Translations under genes and position numbers: made by a program | Assembly: GCF_004337365.2 (NCBI RefSeq) | Contig: NZ_CP044016.1 | Location: forward strand, 868,001-932,000 | DNA length: 64,000 nucleotides | Direction of reading: 5' to 3' | From: Rhizosphaericola mali | Lineage (GTDB): Bacteria > Bacteroidota > Bacteroidia > Chitinophagales > Chitinophagaceae | Shown: one piece after another, positions 44,093-64,000 of the stretch | How positions within the stretch are numbered: the stretch's first letter is position 1 | Layout: every line of letters begins with the position of its first letter | Notes under the pieces: generated by a model | What the model was told of the DNA's origin: nothing | What the model saw: the letters and a program-made list of their open reading frames with translations, nothing else | Database searches by the model: none

Positions 44093-44110
44093 ATTTTTTT
44101 TAGAAAAAAT

Positions 44111-44141
44111 TTTGTAGTTCAAAATCAGCCCCCTATATTTG
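44111..44141 (+). promoter_or_regulatory. tRNA-Val promoter
   Basis: TTTG (44111-44114), 19 nt, then TATATTTG (44134-44141) is an exact match to the Bacteroidota -33/-7 consensus, ending 13 nt before the tRNA. Confidence 0.7.
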
Positions 44142-44154
44142 CACTCCCAACAAC

Positions 44155-44229
44155 GGGAGCTTAGCTCAGCTGGTTTAGAGCATCTGCCTTACAAGCAGAG
44201 GGTCACAGGTTCGAACCCTGTAGCTCCCA
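44155..44229 (+). tRNA. tRNA-Val(TAC)
   Basis: A complete 75-nt cloverleaf: acceptor GGGAGCT pairs with AGCTCCC, D-stem GCTC/GAGC, anticodon stem TCTGC/GCAGA with loop CTTACAA (anticodon TAC, 44190-44192), T-stem ACAGG/CCTGT with TTCGAAC loop, discriminator A. The CCA end is not encoded. A second copy of its 3' half lies at 59290-59331. Confidence 0.97.
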
Positions 44230-44230
44230 C

Positions 44231-44268
44231 AAAAAAAAGAGTTGCAACTATTGCAACTCTTTTTTTTG
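44231..44268 (+). terminator. Terminator of tRNA-Val
   Basis: Stem GAGTTGCAA / TTGCAACTC with a 3-nt loop, flanked by A8 and T8. An almost identical copy accompanies the tRNA fragment at 59253-59289. Confidence 0.88.
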
Positions 44269-44520
44269 TTTACAAACTATAATAAATCAATATTAAATCA
44301 TCTTCATTTTAATAAATTATTATAAATATTACAACATTGCAATTTATGATATTTCTAGGCACTTTTAGCTAGTATTATATTTTTGCAAACTCTAATCTTA
44401 GTATTCCCTTCAATAATATTTAAATGCACCTTTATTAATTCGTCAATGAAATAATTATTATCAGTGGATTTAAAAAAAACTGCCCCTGAAATTATAGGAG
44501 ATTACAATCAAAAATGATTT

Positions 44521-45267
44521 TTATCGTCTAGCAAATGTTGTATAACCTCCATCAACTAAGAGCTCTGTACCTGTGATGTAGCTCGCATTGTTTGAGGCTA
44601 AAAACAAAACCGCTCTTGCAATTTCGTCAGGATTTCCCAACCGGTTTAAAGCTACCGAAGAGGCTAAATGAGTTTTGGCTTCTTCAGTTTTTACAACTTT
44701 GTCAAACCCTTCAGTTTTTATTGGCCCTGGACTTACAACATTAACACGAATACCTCGGTCAACTAATTCGTTGGACACAACTTGAGCAATTTTATTTAAC
44801 GCGCTTTTGGTAGCCGCGTAGATGCTAGAATTTAAATTGGCCGCAGTAGCTACTGTAGAAGATGTAAAAATGATTGATCCCCCTTCATTTAAATAAGGTA
44901 AAAGACTTTGAACTGTAAAAAAAGGTCCTTTTACATTGGTATTAAATTGAGCATCAAAATCCGCTTCAATTACATCTTCGATACCTGAAAAAACTGCAAT
45001 TCCTGCATTGAGATACAAAGTATCAATTAGTATTTTCTTTGAAACAATTTCTTCTTTCAACGCATTAATTCCATACATATTTGATGTATCAGCTAGGACA
45101 GTTATCAAGTTTGAACTATTGATTTTTGCTGCCGCTTTTTCCAAATTCGATTCATTCCTTCCCGTAATCCACACATTCGCTTCGGCATTAATAAAAGCCT
45201 GAGCAGTTGCAAATCCTATTCCTGTAGTACCACCAGTAATTACGATGTTTTTGTTTTTGAAATTCAT
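44521..45267 (-). CDS. SDR family oxidoreductase
   Basis: A 248-residue short-chain dehydrogenase. The cofactor loop TGGTTGIGFATAQAF, NAGIAVFSGI (NNAG variant), catalytic Ser in IFTSSTVATA and YAATKSALNK are present; the C-terminus LLVDGGYTTFARR is classical. ASWITGRN near residue 35, with Arg after the second strand, suggests NADPH use. It is divergent from an HxlR regulator, a common pairing in which the regulator senses electrophiles or oxidants (family knowledge). The substrate is unknown. Confidence 0.93.
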   Translation of the reverse strand: MNFKNKNIVITGGTTGIGFATAQAFINAEANVWITGRNESNLEKAAAKINSSNLITVLADTSNMYGINALKEEIVSKKILIDTLYLNAGIAVFSGIEDVIEADFDAQFNTNVKGPFFTVQSLLPYLNEGGSIIFTSSTVATAANLNSSIYAATKSALNKIAQVVSNELVDRGIRVNVVSPGPIKTEGFDKVVKTEEAKTHLASSVALNRLGNPDEIARAVLFLASNNASYITGTELLVDGGYTTFARR

Positions 45268-45316
45268 TTAGATATTATTTAATTTATAGCAAATGTATTT
45301 ATTGTTTGTTATTTTT

Positions 45317-45365
45317 AGTAACTTCGTACCTAAAAATAATAGTAACTTCGGTGTAACCTAGTAAC
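45317..45365. promoter_or_regulatory. Repeated AGTAAC motif between SDR and HxlR genes
   Basis: AGTAACTTCG occurs at 45317-45326 and 45341-45350 (24-bp period), with shorter GTAAC copies at 45353 and 45361. The repeats lie in the 101-bp divergent promoter region and are candidates for HxlR binding. Confidence 0.4.
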
Positions 45366-45368
45366 AAT

Positions 45369-45734
45369 ATGGAGCAGCAAAAAAGCGAGAAAAAGCAACT
45401 ACATAAAAAAGAAATTCGAGCGATTCAAGATGCAATGGACGTGCTAAATGGGAAATGGAAAATTAACATTTTATCCTCGATTTGCTTATATAACAATAGA
45501 CGTTTCTCTGATATATTGAATGATATAGAAGGTATTTCCAACAGGATGTTGAGTAAAGAATTAAAAGAACTGGAAATCAACCAACTAATCAAAAGGACTG
45601 TAATGGATACACAGCCGATTTCGGTGTCATACAATCTTACCGAACACGGAAAATCCTTAAAAACCATCATAAACAATCTTACTGATTGGGGAATTCGGCA
45701 TCGTAAAATGATTATTGGAAATGAGGATAAGTAA
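45369..45734 (+). CDS. HxlR family transcriptional regulator
   Basis: A 121-residue winged-helix regulator. AIQDAMDVLNGKWKINILSS near residue 17 is the HxlR signature (GGKWKxxIL), followed by RRFSDILNDIEGISNRMLSK, LKELEINQLIKR and the C-terminal YNLTEHGKSLKTIINNLTDW. It has no Cys in the usual redox-sensing position. It is divergent from the SDR gene, which it probably controls together with itself. Confidence 0.94.
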   Translation: MEQQKSEKKQLHKKEIRAIQDAMDVLNGKWKINILSSICLYNNRRFSDILNDIEGISNRMLSKELKELEINQLIKRTVMDTQPISVSYNLTEHGKSLKTIINNLTDWGIRHRKMIIGNEDK

Positions 45735-58209: not shown

Positions 58210-59169
58210 TTAATTATGAACCTTTCCCTTATCGGAAATGATATAGCTGTGGTAATTAGGAAATTGTTGCAATAATTTTTTACTTTTTTCAATTCCCAAA
58301 ACCATAATTGAAGTACTCAAACCATTAGCAAATTCTGCACTTGGACCAGCAATCGTTACACTTACGATACCTGTGGCAGGATATCCCGTTGCAGGATTGA
58401 TAATATGGGAATATCTTTTACCATCTATAAGTGCAAATTTTTCGTAACTACCAGAAGTAACAATGGAAGAGTCTTTTAAGGTTATAATTTTCTTTATTTT
58501 ATTCGGCTTAAATGGATTGGTTACACCGACCACCCAAGACTTTCCATTGGGTTGTCGCCCCCATGTACTTATATCTCCAGAGGCGTCCACAATACCACCA
58601 ATAACTCCAAGTCCTAGCATTAATCGCCTTCCCATATCCGCTGCATATCCTTTACCTATGGAACCAAAACTAATCTTCATCCCTTTTTTCTCGAGAAAAA
58701 TAGTTGTATCGTTATCGTTAAGAATAATATGCTTGTAACCTACGTTGACTATAGATTTTTTTATAGTTTGACTATCCGGAATTTGTTGCATAGAGCCATC
58801 AAATTTCCAGACTTTGTCCATGGCGGCATAACTTATATCAAAAGCACCTTGTGTAATTTCGGAAAAATAAATAGCTCTTTTGGTAAGATTATACACTTCT
58901 AATGGTACTTTTATCGCTGTGATCCCCGCATTTTTATTGATCTGAGAAATATAGGTATTAGGACGCCAGTCAGAAATTAAATCTTCAATGCGAGAGACTT
59001 CATTTTCTACCAATTGTATATTTTGCAATGCTTGACTAGAATCACTTGATACAATCGTAATCGTAAACTTACTGCCCATCAAAGTCGCTGTTTTTTTTAC
59101 AGCAACTTGTGCATGAACTATTGAAAAAAGAAAACTAGAAATGATGATTAACTTGCTATATAGTGCCAT
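58210..59169 (-). CDS. FAD:protein FMN transferase (ApbE family)
   Basis: A 319-residue exported flavin transferase that attaches FMN to Thr/Ser of target proteins (family knowledge). A signal peptide (IIISSFLFSIVHAQ) is followed by LMGSKFTITIV, the SIGKGYAADMGRRLM motif, VDASGDISTWGRQ (DxxGD-type) and HIINPATGYPATG for Mg2+ and FAD binding. No obvious flavinylation target (NqrC/RnfG/FMN-binding domain) is seen in the window. It precedes the M16 peptidase gene and abuts the island junction. Confidence 0.93.
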   Translation of the reverse strand: MALYSKLIIISSFLFSIVHAQVAVKKTATLMGSKFTITIVSSDSSQALQNIQLVENEVSRIEDLISDWRPNTYISQINKNAGITAIKVPLEVYNLTKRAIYFSEITQGAFDISYAAMDKVWKFDGSMQQIPDSQTIKKSIVNVGYKHIILNDNDTTIFLEKKGMKISFGSIGKGYAADMGRRLMLGLGVIGGIVDASGDISTWGRQPNGKSWVVGVTNPFKPNKIKKIITLKDSSIVTSGSYEKFALIDGKRYSHIINPATGYPATGIVSVTIAGPSAEFANGLSTSIMVLGIEKSKKLLQQFPNYHSYIISDKGKVHN

Positions 59170-59252: not shown

Positions 59253-59289
59253 GAAAAAAAGAGTTGCAATAGTTGCAACTCTTTTTTTG
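59253..59289 (-). terminator. Terminator copy beside the tRNA-Val fragment
   Basis: Read on the minus strand it repeats the tRNA-Val terminator: GAGTTGCAA / TTGCAACTC with flanking A7 and T7. It followed the original tRNA copy that was interrupted here. Confidence 0.8.
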
Positions 59290-59331
59290 TGGGAGCTACA
59301 GGGTTCGAACCTGTGACCCTCTGCTTGTAAG
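59290..59331 (-). repeat. Attachment site: 3' half of tRNA-Val(TAC)
   Basis: 42 nt identical to 44188-44229, beginning exactly at the first base of the anticodon loop (CTTACAA) and ending with the discriminator base. The 5' half is missing: upstream the sequence changes to CGGG. This is the usual product of tyrosine-recombinase integration into a tRNA anticodon loop. Confidence 0.85.
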
Positions 59332-59336
59332 CCCGA

Positions 59337-59359
59337 AAAACAATCATGCAAGTTGTTTT
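59337..59359. repeat. Inverted repeat next to the att core
   Basis: Arms AAAACAA (59337-59343) and TTGTTTT (59353-59359) with a 9-nt spacer, directly inside the island end. It may be a recombinase or accessory-factor site. Confidence 0.35.
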
Positions 59360-59459
59360 AAATTATTTATAGTTAGTTCACAAAACCCTTTACCCTATTG
59401 CGTTTGAGTATTTTTAGTATTTACTTTGTTTCGGAAAGCGATAATCTAATTTATCATTA

Positions 59460-59483
59460 CATGTATCAAATCATGTATCAAAT
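59460..59483 (+). repeat. Two tandem 12-bp repeats before the integrase gene
   Basis: CATGTATCAAAT occurs twice without spacing, ending 8 bp before the integrase ATG at 59492. Likely roles are arm-type integrase binding or control of integrase expression; both are inference. Confidence 0.5.
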
Positions 59484-59491
59484 TTTCCATC

Positions 59492-60721
59492 ATGAAACAA
59501 GCCCTTCCTATCATTTCAATTGTCCCAGACAAGAGAAGAACTAAAGATAACAATCTGTATCCATTAAAGTTAAGAATCACTTACAAAGGTGAGCGTAAAT
59601 ATTATTCCACCGGTTACGAAACAAGTTTGGAAGATTGGAAGGCCATGCAGGAAAGACAGGTAAGGGGAAAACTGAAGTCATTGCTCAATTCAACAAACGA
59701 TGTCAAAATACGTGCGCAACATTGTTGCGACACGCTGTCCTTTTTTTCTTACCATGCTTTTGAAGCGGCATTTTTCCCAAAATCAGTACCAACAACATCT
59801 GTACTTGGTGCATTTGAAGAATATGTGGATAGGCTTAAGAAGAACGGACAGGTAGGTACAGCTTCCTCCTACCAATGTGCATGTGTCTCCTTGCATAAAT
59901 TCAAACCCAATCTTAAATTTCGCCATATTACCGTTGAATTTTTAAAAAGCTATGAACAATGGTTTTTGTCCCAAGGTAATTCTATTACTACGGTAAGTAT
60001 ATATGTCAGAGCTCTTCGTGCGCTTGTCAGAATAGCCATCGAGGATGGGATTATGGATAACTTAGACTATCCTTTCGGTAAGCGTAAATATGTTGTCCCT
60101 ATCGGAAGGAATATCAAAAAAGCTCTGACAGTAGAGGAAATCGGATTGATATACAATTACGAAGCGGAAGCCGGAAGCATGGACGAAATGAGTAGAGATT
60201 ATTGGATTTTCATATACTTATGTAACGGGCTTAACATGAAAGACCTGTGTCTATTGAAATACAAAGACATACAAGGCGATTTTATTGCATTTCAACGGGC
60301 AAAGACAATAGTTTCAAGGCGTAGCAACAGTGAGCCGATAAGGATGGCAATAAAAGAAGACGTGAAAAATACCATAGAAAAATGGGGTCAGAAGCCTATT
60401 CATCCTGACTCGTACATTTTTCCATGGATCAAGTCGGAGATGTCATTAGAAGCACAGCGTCTCAAAATTCAACTTGTCGTGCACCTTGTCAACGAACACA
60501 TGAAAAAAATAGCTAAGGAACTAGGTATCGACAAGCCTGTGACAACCTACTGTGCAAGGCACAGTTTTGCTACAGTTCTGAAAAACAGTGGAGTGTCGAC
60601 GGAATTCATAAGTGAGGCTTTGGGGCATAGTTCATTGAAAACAACAAAAAACTACCTTGCTGGATTCGAGAACGAGGCTATACATAAGAATACCGACTTA
60701 CTTTTGCAGTTCAAAAAATAA
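59492..60721 (+). CDS. Tyrosine recombinase / integrase
   Basis: A 409-residue site-specific recombinase of the Bacteroidota phage_int_SAM_5 type. An N-terminal arm-binding domain (KLRITYKGERKYYSTGYETS) and SAM-like core-binding domain (TVEFLKSYEQWFLSQGNSIT) precede the catalytic domain. Box II is present (YCARHSFATVL with Arg and His), as are the second His (LGHSS) and the nucleophile Tyr (KTTKNYLAGF). The box I Arg is replaced by Asn (CNGLNMKDLCLLKY), as in relatives such as IntDOT that lack this Arg. It likely drives integration at tRNA-Val. Confidence 0.95.
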   Translation: MKQALPIISIVPDKRRTKDNNLYPLKLRITYKGERKYYSTGYETSLEDWKAMQERQVRGKLKSLLNSTNDVKIRAQHCCDTLSFFSYHAFEAAFFPKSVPTTSVLGAFEEYVDRLKKNGQVGTASSYQCACVSLHKFKPNLKFRHITVEFLKSYEQWFLSQGNSITTVSIYVRALRALVRIAIEDGIMDNLDYPFGKRKYVVPIGRNIKKALTVEEIGLIYNYEAEAGSMDEMSRDYWIFIYLCNGLNMKDLCLLKYKDIQGDFIAFQRAKTIVSRRSNSEPIRMAIKEDVKNTIEKWGQKPIHPDSYIFPWIKSEMSLEAQRLKIQLVVHLVNEHMKKIAKELGIDKPVTTYCARHSFATVLKNSGVSTEFISEALGHSSLKTTKNYLAGFENEAIHKNTDLLLQFKK

Positions 60722-60810
60722 AAAATTCTTTATAAATAATGAAGAGGTAACTAATCTTAATTGGGTGACATATTAAAATGAAGTAGCGAAATTTTTATGT
60801 GTATGTATAG

Positions 60811-60845
60811 TATTGTACAAGTTATGAACTTATATGTGTACAATA
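60811..60845. repeat. Inverted repeat downstream of the integrase gene
   Basis: Perfect arms TATTGTACA (60811-60819) and TGTACAATA (60837-60845), with a smaller AAGTT-ATG-AACTT repeat in the loop region. The surrounding 276-bp gap between the integrase and AraC genes holds no gene. Confidence 0.4.
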
Positions 60846-60997
60846 ACTGAACTCAAAGTAATGATTTGTTTTGCTAGCAAATGAGTTATATAAGGATTTG
60901 TTAGAACCTAAATACTGAATGAATAATATGTGCTGACTATATAAAGCCTATTCGTATTTATATGTCTTTAGAGGATGAAAATTTGATCAATACAGAT

Positions 60998-61915
60998 TTA
61001 ATTGAATGATTTCCTGAAATCTAAGGGCGAAACCTTTGTTTTGGCTTTGAACAATTTGGTAAAAGAAGAAGGGTGTCCAAAACCAAGTTCGTAAGCTATC
61101 TCACTTACTGACAAGTTCGTGGTCGACAATTTTTCTTTAGCAGCTTCTATGACTTTCTGGTGAATAAAGCTTAATGCATTCTGCCCTGTAAGTGAACGTA
61201 CCATGTCGCTCAGGTAACTTGGAGATACATTCATTTGTTCCGCCAGAAACTGAACTGTTGGAGTTCCTTCGATTAGCGTTTTGCTGGTCGTAAGATAATC
61301 CTCTAATATGCCTTCTAATTCTTCTAATAAATTACTGTTGACAACCTTTCTAGTAATAAACTGTCGCTTATAAAATCGATTCGCATAAGTAAGCAGAAGA
61401 TCAACCTGAGAAACAATTACATCTTGGCTAAGGTCGTCAATCCTATTGTTTAACTCGTCTTCGATTTCTGTCATAATGCCAACTATCGTATTTTTTTCTT
61501 TTTCAGAAAGATGAAGTGCTTCATTTGTATTATAGGAGAAGAAGCCATACTGCTTGATTTTTTTGGACAATGGATATTTCAACAAAAAGTCTGGATGGAT
61601 AAGTAAAGTATACATAGACCATTGCTCTGCGAATTCATAACTACATTTGCCGATAATCTGGTTGGGTGCTATAAACGTCATACCTCCTTCTGCATAATCA
61701 TAGTGACACTGCCCGTATTTGGACATGCCGCTCAAGCCACTACCAAAAGAGATCCTGTAAAAATTCGATAGCACAGAACCCTCAAACTTATTTTCGGGAA
61801 TACGGTTTTTTGGCCAATTAATAAGGCTAATGAGTGGATGCTGGGGTGATGAAAGATCATGGTCACGATGTATTTCTGACAATGATCTGATATTAATGGG
61901 ATGAGTCTTTTTCAT
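60998..61915 (-). CDS. AraC family transcriptional regulator
   Basis: A 305-residue regulator. The N-terminal cupin-like sensor part (about 1-190) includes FYRISFGSGLSGMSKYGQCH and GGMTFIAPNQIIGKCSYEFA. The C-terminal HTH pair is TVQFLAEQMNVSPSYLSDMV and LSVSEIAYELGFGHPSSFTK, ending KVSPLDFRK. It is cotranscribed or adjacent to the SDR gene (71-bp gap) and probably controls the island's oxidoreductase genes in response to a small molecule (inference). Confidence 0.93.
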   Translation of the reverse strand: MKKTHPINIRSLSEIHRDHDLSSPQHPLISLINWPKNRIPENKFEGSVLSNFYRISFGSGLSGMSKYGQCHYDYAEGGMTFIAPNQIIGKCSYEFAEQWSMYTLLIHPDFLLKYPLSKKIKQYGFFSYNTNEALHLSEKEKNTIVGIMTEIEDELNNRIDDLSQDVIVSQVDLLLTYANRFYKRQFITRKVVNSNLLEELEGILEDYLTTSKTLIEGTPTVQFLAEQMNVSPSYLSDMVRSLTGQNALSFIHQKVIEAAKEKLSTTNLSVSEIAYELGFGHPSSFTKLFKAKTKVSPLDFRKSFN

Positions 61916-61986
61916 ATTTATAAATTTACAAATTAAACCGATAGCAAGCTACCGGTTTAACCATTTCGTTAAAACAACTAAGGATT

Positions 61987-62787
61987 TTACAGTCTGTAAC
62001 CACCACTTGCCTCGACTACCTGGCCAGTAATCCATCCACCCTTGTCAGACGCTAAAAAAACGACAACTTCGGCAATGTCAGTAGCTTCTCCAAATCGTCC
62101 CAAGGCGGTGTCGGTTTCTATAGCCTTAACTATGTTTTGATTTTCGCGAACGGCCGCATTCATGTCTGTGCGCGTCCAACCAGGTGCAACCCCGTTTACA
62201 GTAATACCACGTGCACCGAACTCCATTGCAAAGGCATGGGTCAACGCATTAACGCTAGCCTTAGCCGCCGAGTAAATCGGAACAAGAGGCTGTGGCTGTG
62301 TTGCCAAGTTTGACGATATATTGATGATACGTCCTCCATCTGGAATGCGGCCAATTGCAGACTGAACTATAAAAAAAGGGGCTCTCGCATGCACGGCAAA
62401 CATAGTGTCCCAACTCTCAGGTGTCGCATCTGAAAGGTTTCCAAAACCAGAATTCCCAGCATTGTTAACCAAAATATCCAATGAGTTACTGCCAGTGCGT
62501 TCGGTTAATTCTTTATCCAGTATTTCGAAAAGTTGTGGTATTGTACTGGCCTCTACCAGATTTGCATGCAAGGCAAACGCTTTACCACCCGATTTTTCAA
62601 TATCTGCAACCACTTTATCTGCGGCATCTTTGCCTGAATTGTAGGTGATGGCAACTACAGCTCCCTCTATTGCAAGTTGTTCCGCAATTGCACGTCCTAT
62701 TCCTCTCGATCCTCCGGTAACAAGTGCCGTTTTGTTGGCTAAAGTTTTACCGCTGAAATTATCTTCTGATCTGTTTTTTTCTGACAT
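61987..62787 (-). CDS. SDR family oxidoreductase
   Basis: A 266-residue short-chain dehydrogenase. TGGSRGIGRAIAEQLA forms the cofactor loop, NNAGNSGFG follows, and YSAAKASVNALTHAF holds the catalytic Tyr and Lys; the end is QVVEASGGYRL. It resembles 3-oxoacyl-ACP-reductase-like or glucose-dehydrogenase-like members; the substrate is unknown. ATG at 62787 (MSEKNRSEDNFSGK) is chosen, because the reading from 62889 adds 34 residues without family resemblance and overlaps the upstream gene's stop. Confidence 0.93.
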   Translation of the reverse strand: MSEKNRSEDNFSGKTLANKTALVTGGSRGIGRAIAEQLAIEGAVVAITYNSGKDAADKVVADIEKSGGKAFALHANLVEASTIPQLFEILDKELTERTGSNSLDILVNNAGNSGFGNLSDATPESWDTMFAVHARAPFFIVQSAIGRIPDGGRIINISSNLATQPQPLVPIYSAAKASVNALTHAFAMEFGARGITVNGVAPGWTRTDMNAAVRENQNIVKAIETDTALGRFGEATDIAEVVVFLASDKGGWITGQVVEASGGYRL

Positions 62788-62888
62788 ATTGTTTTTTCTT
62801 TTTGTTAAGACAAAGTTCAACGTTCCGCAATTTGTAAGTTTTGCCGTTTTTAGGTATTGCTTTGCCAAAAGGAAGTTGAGACAATTCA

Positions 62889-63587
62889 TTAAACCACTCT
62901 ATCACGATATACTGGACCAGGATTTGCCTCAACAATGGTAATTGCCAAACGATTGAGGTAATCACCCCCTCCGTATTCAAGCGTTGCAACTTCGTGAATA
63001 AGAATACCAGCTTGCTCTATTGTCCGGGCCGACTTAAGAGGGCCTGCATTCAAAGGTTTAAAGCCACTGTCCGTAATTAGCTTTCTAGTGACCTGTCCTG
63101 CTGCATGGTCATCCGTTGCATAAAAAATGCCCGGCTGGGTAGATGATTTAGCCCACGCAGCCGCTTCGAGGAGTGGGGAAGCCAGCAGGTTAAACGCCTT
63201 AACGACTCTTGCATTGGGAATCAATTTTTGCAGGACTTCAGCAGTTGAATTATCACGCATAAATTCCAAATCGTGATAGTGCTCAAATTTTTCTGTAACG
63301 GCCAAGGGATTCATTGTTTCGATAACGACTTTGCCATCGAAAGCATCTCCTGCAAGATATACCACAGCTTCGGCCCTCGGCCAATATACCGAAAACAAAA
63401 TCACCTCTCCAAACTCTGCTGCTTCTCTAATAGTGCCAAGACGGACATTCCCTCCCAATTCTTTTAGCAGAGGCTCCAATTTTCTATCATCACCATCTTT
63501 TGCTACTACGATCTCATGTCCAGCAGAGGCCCACGCCCTAGCAAGACGGCCACCGATGTTACCAGTGTTTAAAATTCCAATTTTCAT
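62889..63587 (-). CDS. NAD(P)-binding F420-oxidoreductase-like protein
   Basis: A 232-residue protein of the NADP-dependent F420 oxidoreductase fold. The Rossmann motif MKIGILNTGNIGGRLARAWA is followed by GHEIVVAKDGDD, VILFSVYWPRAEAVVY and VIETMNPLAV. In this family the reductant is often NADPH, but most bacterial members have an unknown substrate. It lies about 100 bp upstream of the SDR gene in the same direction, likely one oxidoreductase unit. Confidence 0.9.
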   Translation of the reverse strand: MKIGILNTGNIGGRLARAWASAGHEIVVAKDGDDRKLEPLLKELGGNVRLGTIREAAEFGEVILFSVYWPRAEAVVYLAGDAFDGKVVIETMNPLAVTEKFEHYHDLEFMRDNSTAEVLQKLIPNARVVKAFNLLASPLLEAAAWAKSSTQPGIFYATDDHAAGQVTRKLITDSGFKPLNAGPLKSARTIEQAGILIHEVATLEYGGGDYLNRLAITIVEANPGPVYRDRVV

Positions 63588-63651
63588 TTTACTTGTTTTT
63601 ACTTAAACATTCCTAATTCATTTGGAATGCTAAACCGCAAAATTCTATCTT

Positions 63652-64000
63652 TTACATACCAGATATTTTGCCATATCTAGGAATTTCTTTGCCGAATTGT
63701 TCCTTGACCCAATGCAGCTGCATAAAACCGTTCACTGCATTATAATCTTTAAGTGAAAACCTTGTGTTTAATTCACTACTGTTCCCCAACGTACTGCCAA
63801 CTCCTGTAATTAAAGGATTGACGTTTAAATAAATGTCCGTTACCAAATCACTTTCTATAAAGGCATTAAATGTATCTGTTCCTCCTCCTATTGCGATTTC
63901 GGTTAATCCTTTTGCAGACGCAAATTCTACAGCTTTCTCTGGACTTTCGATAGTCCTGTAATTTTTTGTAATTATTGAATTATTAGACAATACAATGATT
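63652..64000 (-). CDS. Dihydrofolate reductase/RibD-like protein, 5' end outside window
   Basis: The C-terminal 116 residues or so of a DHFR-family (RibD C-terminal domain-like) reductase. AIGGGTDTFNAFIESDLVTD and LNVNPLITGVGSTLG match the usual GGGxL and P-x-x-GxG region, and FMQLHWVKEQF ends the domain. The frame stays open to base 64000, so the start lies outside; the TTG at 63990 is internal. Such proteins are common NADPH reductases near AraC/SDR genes in Bacteroidota accessory DNA. Confidence 0.8.
   Translation of the reverse strand, partial: IIVLSNNSIITKNYRTIESPEKAVEFASAKGLTEIAIGGGTDTFNAFIESDLVTDIYLNVNPLITGVGSTLGNSSELNTRFSLKDYNAVNGFMQLHWVKEQFGKEIPRYGKISGM

Follow-up and report, generated by a model that had tools for sequence, protein, structure and literature searches.

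The 64,000-nt window analysed here is a stretch of the Rhizosphaericola mali genome (G000:C1:868001-932000; the genome has two contigs, 4.70 Mb and an estimated completeness of 99.7%). Close to its right edge lies what is very probably the integrase-side end of an integrated and decayed element of 9,445 bp, whose insertion would have rebuilt a tRNA-Val gene and supplied it with a terminator-like hairpin of the element's own. The element continues past the edge of the window, and positions beyond 64,000 are given below as window-equivalent coordinates, read in an adjoining 16-kb stretch (L007).

The element is delimited by two 43-nt direct repeats, the starts of which are 9,445 bp apart. The first, at 59289..59331 on the minus strand, is a displaced 3′ half of a tRNA-Val gene: it consists of 42 nt of tRNA-Val(TAC), starting by eye exactly where the 7-nt anticodon loop (CTTACAA) starts, and of a single base after the discriminator. 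The second repeat, located by searching the genome at the DNA level, is on the same strand at C1:936734-936776 (window-equivalent 68734-68776), within an intact minus-strand tRNA-Val(TAC) gene that ARAGORN identifies at G000:C1:936734-936809 (68734-68809). A sequence-only reading of the window had proposed a genomic island at the tRNA-Val anticodon loop and had predicted that an intact minus-strand tRNA-Val, with its 3′ half as the second repeat, would lie past the right edge. The gene is present where it was predicted, and the island interpretation is supported by it; the identity of the block to the tRNA 3′ half and its start at the anticodon loop also hold, and only its length, given as 42 nt, has to be corrected to 43.

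The surroundings of the block agree with that reading as well. Outside it are a terminator at 59254..59288 (minus strand; fold −17.3), which aligns to the terminator of a second tRNA-Val copy and is taken to be the original terminator of the host gene, now on the far side of the element, and then an apbE-like gene at 58210..59169 (minus strand), a name carried over from the sequence-only reading. Inside it is the expected tyrosine recombinase, an integrase of 409 aa at 59492..60721 (plus strand) that reads into the element and has three Pfam integrase domains, Arm-DNA-bind_5, Phage_int_SAM_5 and Phage_integrase (PF17293, PF13102 and PF00589). Its gene is thus situated between the intact tRNA-Val and the displaced fragment, both of which have the same orientation. 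The island was also said to be the more GC-rich side, and its G+C content is indeed 39.7% (38.3% without its insertion sequence), compared with 31.8% and 33.3% for the two flanks.

The second copy of tRNA-Val(TAC), copy 1 (44155..44230, plus strand), with its terminator at 44231..44268 (plus strand), is an unoccupied paralogue within the window and provides an empty-site reference. When the outer flanks of the element are rejoined across the repeat, they align to copy 1 over about 50 nt of upstream sequence, the tRNA and the terminator; the occupied intact locus aligns to it only up to the tRNA 3′ end and one further base. Because the rejoined flanks match copy 1 through the terminator, the DNA beside the apbE-like gene is the original downstream flank of the tRNA. 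The repeat is not a chance similarity, since it is present at both ends and the match of the rejoined flanks to copy 1 continues past the tRNA in both directions. In a genome of the same genus (G001), the copy-1 orthologue, recognised by punA and malQ, is occupied by a related right end (L134), and copy 1 in the window itself is empty. The within-genome paralogue and the copy-1 orthologue together stand in for the locus's own empty site and support integration.

The repeats suggest the following course of events. The integrase would have recombined an attachment site of the element (attP), bearing a tRNA-Val 3′ half, with the anticodon loop of the chromosomal tRNA-Val(TAC) gene. This would have split the host gene, with the 5′ half remaining in place and gaining a new 3′ half from the element, and the host's own 3′ half and terminator ending up at the opposite end, next to the apbE-like gene. 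With a hairpin of the element between the rebuilt tRNA and the arm repeats, transcription would end on element DNA and would not read into the element. The Arm domain of the integrase would bind paired direct repeats of 11-12 bp at both ends.

These paired repeats, or doublets, are a second mark of the element's ends. The left doublet, TGTATCAAAT-NN-TGTATCAAAT, lies at 59462..59483 (plus strand), 8 nt before the integrase start codon and separated from the core by a 130-nt interval (59332..59461) that would form the element's attachment arm. The same doublet recurs in the same orientation at window-equivalent 68669-68690. Allowing up to two mismatches, the doublet pattern has eight matches in the genome and its backwards version none; with up to one mismatch, it has 19 matches in eight of 195 genomes of the family (control, 0). 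Fifteen of the 19 are beside an intact or half tRNA, and two more are beside an integrase of the family only. Spacing is nearly constant in five uninterrupted pairs (elements A and B and those of G084, G211 and G019), at 127-130 nt from core to left doublet and 38-45 nt from right doublet to core. Given their position, their pairing and their variation with the integrase, the doublets are likely to be arm sites bound by the N-terminal Arm domain; their period of 11-12 bp is about one turn of DNA.

Some pairs depart from the simple layout. In G139 there are two identical copies of the 43-nt half tRNA, at 267297 and 301932, 34.6 kb apart and beside an intact tRNA-Lys, although the automated pair script gave no proper core there. 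About 3.7 kb separates the hairpin from the right doublet at this end (L143, G139:C1:267340-270998), including a transposase-like gene (363 aa) and a 477-aa open reading frame (ORF), and the last bases of the right doublet are altered. In G001 (L036/L025, contig C168) two elements stand in a tandem array: the right end of one, with doublet TGTATCAAAT, directly adjoins the integrase and half tRNA of the other, with doublet GGGGTGCAAAT. An element of G084 (L147, contig C11) has a half tRNA at both ends and no intact tRNA in the 20 kb fetched. Outside the left end in G019 (L150) there is an element-type hairpin with a degenerate doublet-like sequence, which points to an earlier right end, belonging to a different element, at this tRNA-Lys.

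The window element has relatives in its own genome, where its integrase has two paralogues at 72-73% identity and one at 38%. Element B extends over 41,489 bp between an intact tRNA-Asn(GTT) at 308200-308274 and a half tRNA at 349721-349763, and carries HTH_17, NikA/MobC and relaxase proteins. Element E, with a span of 94,946 bp, runs from a half tRNA-Lys(CTT) at 2181672 to a repeat at 2276618 inside an intact tRNA-Lys(CTT), and encodes a relaxase, a coupling protein, a TraG-type ATPase and an RteC protein; its far doublet is degenerate and escaped the pattern search, the end being located through a search with a 300-aa protein family described below. Two more right ends adjoin intact tRNAs, namely tRNA-Asn at 4580934 (L045, 4580868) and a CAT tRNA at 3292368 (L044, 3292488). 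No partner end was found within the 60 kb searched for each of elements C and D, which are represented by right ends only; the unpaired right ends L045 and L044 could belong to very long elements or be remnants that have lost the integrase end. For a further integrase with a doublet (int3), which has no half tRNA, the far end was not found. At L042 (G000:C1:1138589-1139836) an integrase of the family and a doublet are present with no half tRNA seen upstream, which suggests loss or rearrangement of the left boundary. Beyond the genome, no relatives of the integrase were found in viral contigs, and one was found in genome contigs, on a Chitinophagales metagenome contig, in a search from which records of the own genome were possibly excluded.

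Between the right doublet and the rebuilt tRNA there is a stem-loop followed by a T-run, in the sense of transcription. At all 14 right ends compared, none of 200 dinucleotide shuffles folds as stably as the natural sequence (minimum free energies of −12.7 to −20.0); 13 of these ends had been picked by the doublet, one (that of element E) by the 300-aa protein and none by the hairpin. The stem sequence is similar in ten of the 14, across Val, Asn, Lys and CAT tRNAs, and because it is shared in different tRNA contexts the hairpin seems to be the element's own and not to have been acquired from the individual host tRNAs. Host terminators that have been displaced fold as well, so that the element would replace like with like. 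The sequence has the features of an intrinsic terminator, a G+C-containing stem and then a U-run, and we infer that it ends transcription of the tRNA.

The hairpin could serve recombination instead of termination, and this is a point against the proposed reading. As part of the recombination site it would be an extra site for the integrase or an accessory protein, either in place of a terminator or both at once. Its place between core and arm doublet at similar spacing would suit such a role, as would the similar stem in ten of 14 right ends across different tRNAs, which is what a protein site would show. We nevertheless consider this alternative unlikely. The stem sequences of G019, G029 and G055 are different and that of G022 is similar in part, yet the hairpin and T-run are kept, as they are in G010; it is the structure that is conserved, not the sequence. 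(The right ends of G010 and G139, which also have the hairpin, were outside the shuffle test.) In addition, a scan of 700 nt at the end of the window element gives a single terminator-like site, located at the hairpin, against 0.2 expected.

The interior of the element shows signs of decay. After the integrase come four genes on the minus strand, encoding an AraC-type regulator (60998..61915), a short-chain dehydrogenase (61987..62889) and an F420/NADP-oxidoreductase-like protein (62889..63587), all three cargo, and a RibD/DHFR-like protein of 183 aa (63652..64000, cut by the window edge, with its start at window-equivalent 64203). Beyond these are an HxlR regulator, a short-chain dehydrogenase (SDR) gene without its start, an IS21-family pair (IstB and transposase) and a 140-aa ORF without family match. 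This ORF corresponds to the first ~138 residues of the 300-aa protein, of which element B has the complete form; identity is 88% across query residues 1-149, a stretch that includes one internal stop. No convincing match to the missing end of the protein was found in the window or in L007. Two identical and two 92%-identical copies of the IS21 element occur elsewhere in the genome. Because different genes are cut on its two sides, the SDR gene lacking its start and the 300-aa family gene its end, the middle of the element appears to have been lost.

The signs of decay are that an IS21-family insertion occupies the position at which the right-terminal gene ends in element B, and that the small helix-turn-helix (HTH) and mobilisation genes of B are absent. 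No relaxase, which an integrative and mobilizable element (IME) would itself encode, was found among the ten window-element proteins scanned, small ORFs of the opposite strand being outside the scan; nor was a coupling protein or secretion ATPase, which together with a relaxase would mark an integrative and conjugative element (ICE). The window element therefore looks like a decayed derivative of a mobile family. It probably cannot transfer by itself, and it may excise only if a relative supplies a missing factor. An alternative is that this is a small cargo island, fully mobile as it stands, for which the integrase and host factors suffice. The integrase is full length and both ends are present, and spontaneous excision has been reported for a 10-kb island of Riemerella that occupies a tRNA-Arg and carries a tyrosine integrase (PMC6764341). 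We regard this as improbable in view of the right-terminal gene cut by the IS21 copy and of the HTH_17 and relaxase proteins of element B, neither of which has a counterpart among the ten scanned proteins.

The right-terminal gene itself belongs to a family of ~300-aa proteins encoded at the tRNA-side end of the elements (L038, 1670-2572; L137, L138, L139, L140 and L153). The protein occurs in five of the 195 genomes of the family, all of them among the eight that bear doublets, and in none of 394 other genomes of a phylum sample; the search of that sample also exposed the distant third copy in the own genome that led to the end of element E. A small ORF resembling by eye the HTH_17 protein of element B adjoins the 300-aa gene in element E, G139, G084 and G211, and in element B the HTH gene is ~20 kb further in. 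Pfam, PHROGs and PDB-sequence searches gave nothing convincing for the protein, and an AlphaFold2 model from a five-sequence alignment (mean predicted local distance difference test, pLDDT, 78.6; predicted template modelling score, pTM, 0.50) had no significant PDB match (best E 0.54). A likeness of the C-terminus had suggested RteC, a candidate that the comparisons do not support: PF09357 is not among the Pfam matches up to E 1, and hhalign against nine RteC proteins, with a query profile of five sequences, gives a probability of 0.5% (E 0.11). From its position, a role in excision would be our guess.

The two tRNA-Val(TAC) loci are themselves related. They are similar over ~180 nt, including the upstream region and the terminator (44103-44280 versus 59254-59331 and 68777 onward), and without the island they form an inverted pair ~15 kb apart, which could allow inversion of the intervening segment. 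By eye, that segment contains SDR, HxlR, TlpA-like, SusC/SusD-like, FecR-like, sigma-factor, M16-peptidase and apbE-like genes. An SDR-HxlR pair lies just downstream of copy 1 (44521-45734), and a related pair (L007, 6278-7111) is part of the island cargo, with identities of 54% and 42%. The sequence-only reading had attributed the likeness of the loci to an older duplication, which is compatible with its extent and inverted orientation, although later homogenisation would fit too. That the 43-nt block is a relic of such a duplication, which could yield tRNA fragments, or of partial gene conversion, is very hard to credit, because the block and the intact tRNA are direct repeats flanking an integrase, doublets and DNA of different composition, and the same arrangement is found in three elements of the genome at three different tRNAs.

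The end-plan seems to be found more widely among integrase loci of Bacteroidota. In a first set of 21 integrase loci, four of them from the own genome, 15 have perfect (10/10) tandem repeats with a period of 11-12 near the integrase start and two more reach 9/10, the repeat sequences differing between integrases; L009 was unscored since its contig ends there, and a doublet was seen in it on inspection. A phylum sample of 118 genomes gave 28 integrase matches outside the own genome, 27 of which have a locus (G259:C37 has none, and the four matches in the own genome are not counted). Of the 27, 22 have a doublet scoring 9/10 or better, compared with a rate of 3.4% in shuffles that keep base composition only; the loci are not all independent, as L213 shares its repeat with L217. 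For every locus an upstream flank of 1,500 nt was assumed, and the position of the start codon is an estimate based on the first residue matched. Under a strict T-arm rule, a half tRNA was detected at nine of the 22 doublet loci, each time with the same orientation and at a distance of 140-153 nt, and never in the opposite orientation; the shuffled comparison covered the doublets only.

The expectation that the doublet should recur at a far end was recorded before the sequences concerned were analysed. Among five loci for which 60 kb were available, three have a far doublet in the same orientation together with a hairpin and an intact tRNA (G022, CAT; G029, Leu-CAA; G055, Asn), and in a fourth (G010, Asn) the far doublet was found once a period of 11 was allowed in place of 12. 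G017 has a second copy of its doublet 373 nt away. We think it somewhat more probable than otherwise that these elements follow one attachment-site blueprint, in which an integrase-specific doublet upstream of the integrase gene, a core at the anticodon loop at a near-fixed distance, a replacement terminator and the doublet once more would together insulate the tRNA.

A number of observations count against the integration reading or the generality of this rule. For the window locus, the flanking amidase and apbE-like proteins have no match in the draft genome G001 of the same genus, which leaves no orthologous empty site. In more distant genomes there is no intact tRNA within ~1,500 nt of 10 amidase and 11 apbE-like loci, so the tRNA locus is not conserved there. 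By eye, none of the three identical copies of the IS21 element shows a target duplication; for the two 92%-identical copies the left ends were not located. Among the 19 doublet matches in the family, two (L127 and L130) have no tRNA alongside, an integrase not having been searched for there, and L042 and L135 have an integrase without a half tRNA, the contig of L135 ending 15 nt past the doublet. Three loci of the first set (L013, L017 and L018) and five of the 27 phylum loci (best 7/10) lack a doublet. The far doublet was not found within 60 kb in G037, nor was a far copy found in the 10-20 kb fetched for G021, G033, G017, G036 and G029b. G036 (L203, G036:C264), with a TGTGTCAAAT doublet, has an intact plus-strand CAT tRNA on the integrase side, where a half tRNA would be expected. 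Finally, the core of G055 is only 101 nt from the left doublet, and that of G029a is shared over only 14 nt.

As a tRNA island, the window element is ordinary; what is new is the shared plan of the ends with a carried terminator-like hairpin. In the Islander survey, 2083 of 3919 tRNA islands use anticodon-centred sites, the larger class (PMC4383910), so the site class of the window element is a common one. Like those islands, it has an intact rebuilt tRNA at one end, a displaced 3′ fragment at the other and the integrase inside (PMC4383910). The paired doublets and the carried hairpin are additions to that account, in the main text of which the word 'terminator' does not appear (PMC4383910), as it does not in the main text of a review of IMEs (PMC5704250). 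In the literature covered, which excluded most subscription articles and among them the paper on NBU1 arm sites, no title or abstract opening describes a carried terminator or the doublet rule. Elements B (relaxase) and E (relaxase, coupling protein and TraG) fit the IME and ICE classes described for Bacteroidota, unlike the window element, in which no relaxase was found and which looks decayed (PMC5704250, PMC8694125).

The integrase is closest in character to the NBU1/CTnDOT type. It is a Bacteroidota integrase with arm-binding, SAM-like and catalytic domains, and Asn248 occupies the expected place of the first catalytic Arg, an equivalence made by eye, the Asn being invariant in seven aligned integrases. 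In the IntCTnDOT subgroup this Arg is described as weakly conserved or absent (PMC8138268), and the integrase fits the subgroup in its three domains and in the missing Arg. NBU1 integrates at tRNA-Leu (PMC8138268). The sites found here differ in being the anticodon loops of Val, Asn, Lys, Leu or CAT tRNAs, and the right-terminal 300-aa protein differs in not being RteC by the hhalign test. The NBU1 arm sites are reportedly pairs of direct repeats (DR a/b), so the doublet may generalise a feature already known for NBU1. If the blueprint is true, the sequence by itself would be enough to recognise the targets, arm sites and far ends of such elements, the doublet serving as a handle: the repeat pair upstream of an integrase would lead to its copy in the same orientation, and this to the far end with its intact tRNA. 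Moreover, because different integrases have different repeats, there is a route to study DNA recognition by the Arm domain.

Genomic islands frequently occupy tRNA genes, and interest in them often goes no further than the rebuilt tRNA. The element described here appears to repair the transcription unit as well, terminator included, and such repair might explain how several elements can occupy tRNA genes of one genome without harm. An instructive contrast is ICEKp1 of Klebsiella, the integration of which is described as displacing the tRNA terminator, so that the tRNA promoter then drives int (PMC13023037). In the window element, too, integration into the tRNA has moved the host terminator to the far end; however, int adjoins the tRNA in ICEKp1 (PMC13023037), whereas here it is at the other end of the element, which supplies a terminator-like hairpin of its own. 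If our reading is true, the arrangement is the reverse of that in ICEKp1: there int comes under the tRNA promoter once the terminator is displaced, and here the rebuilt tRNA would be insulated, with int at the far end.

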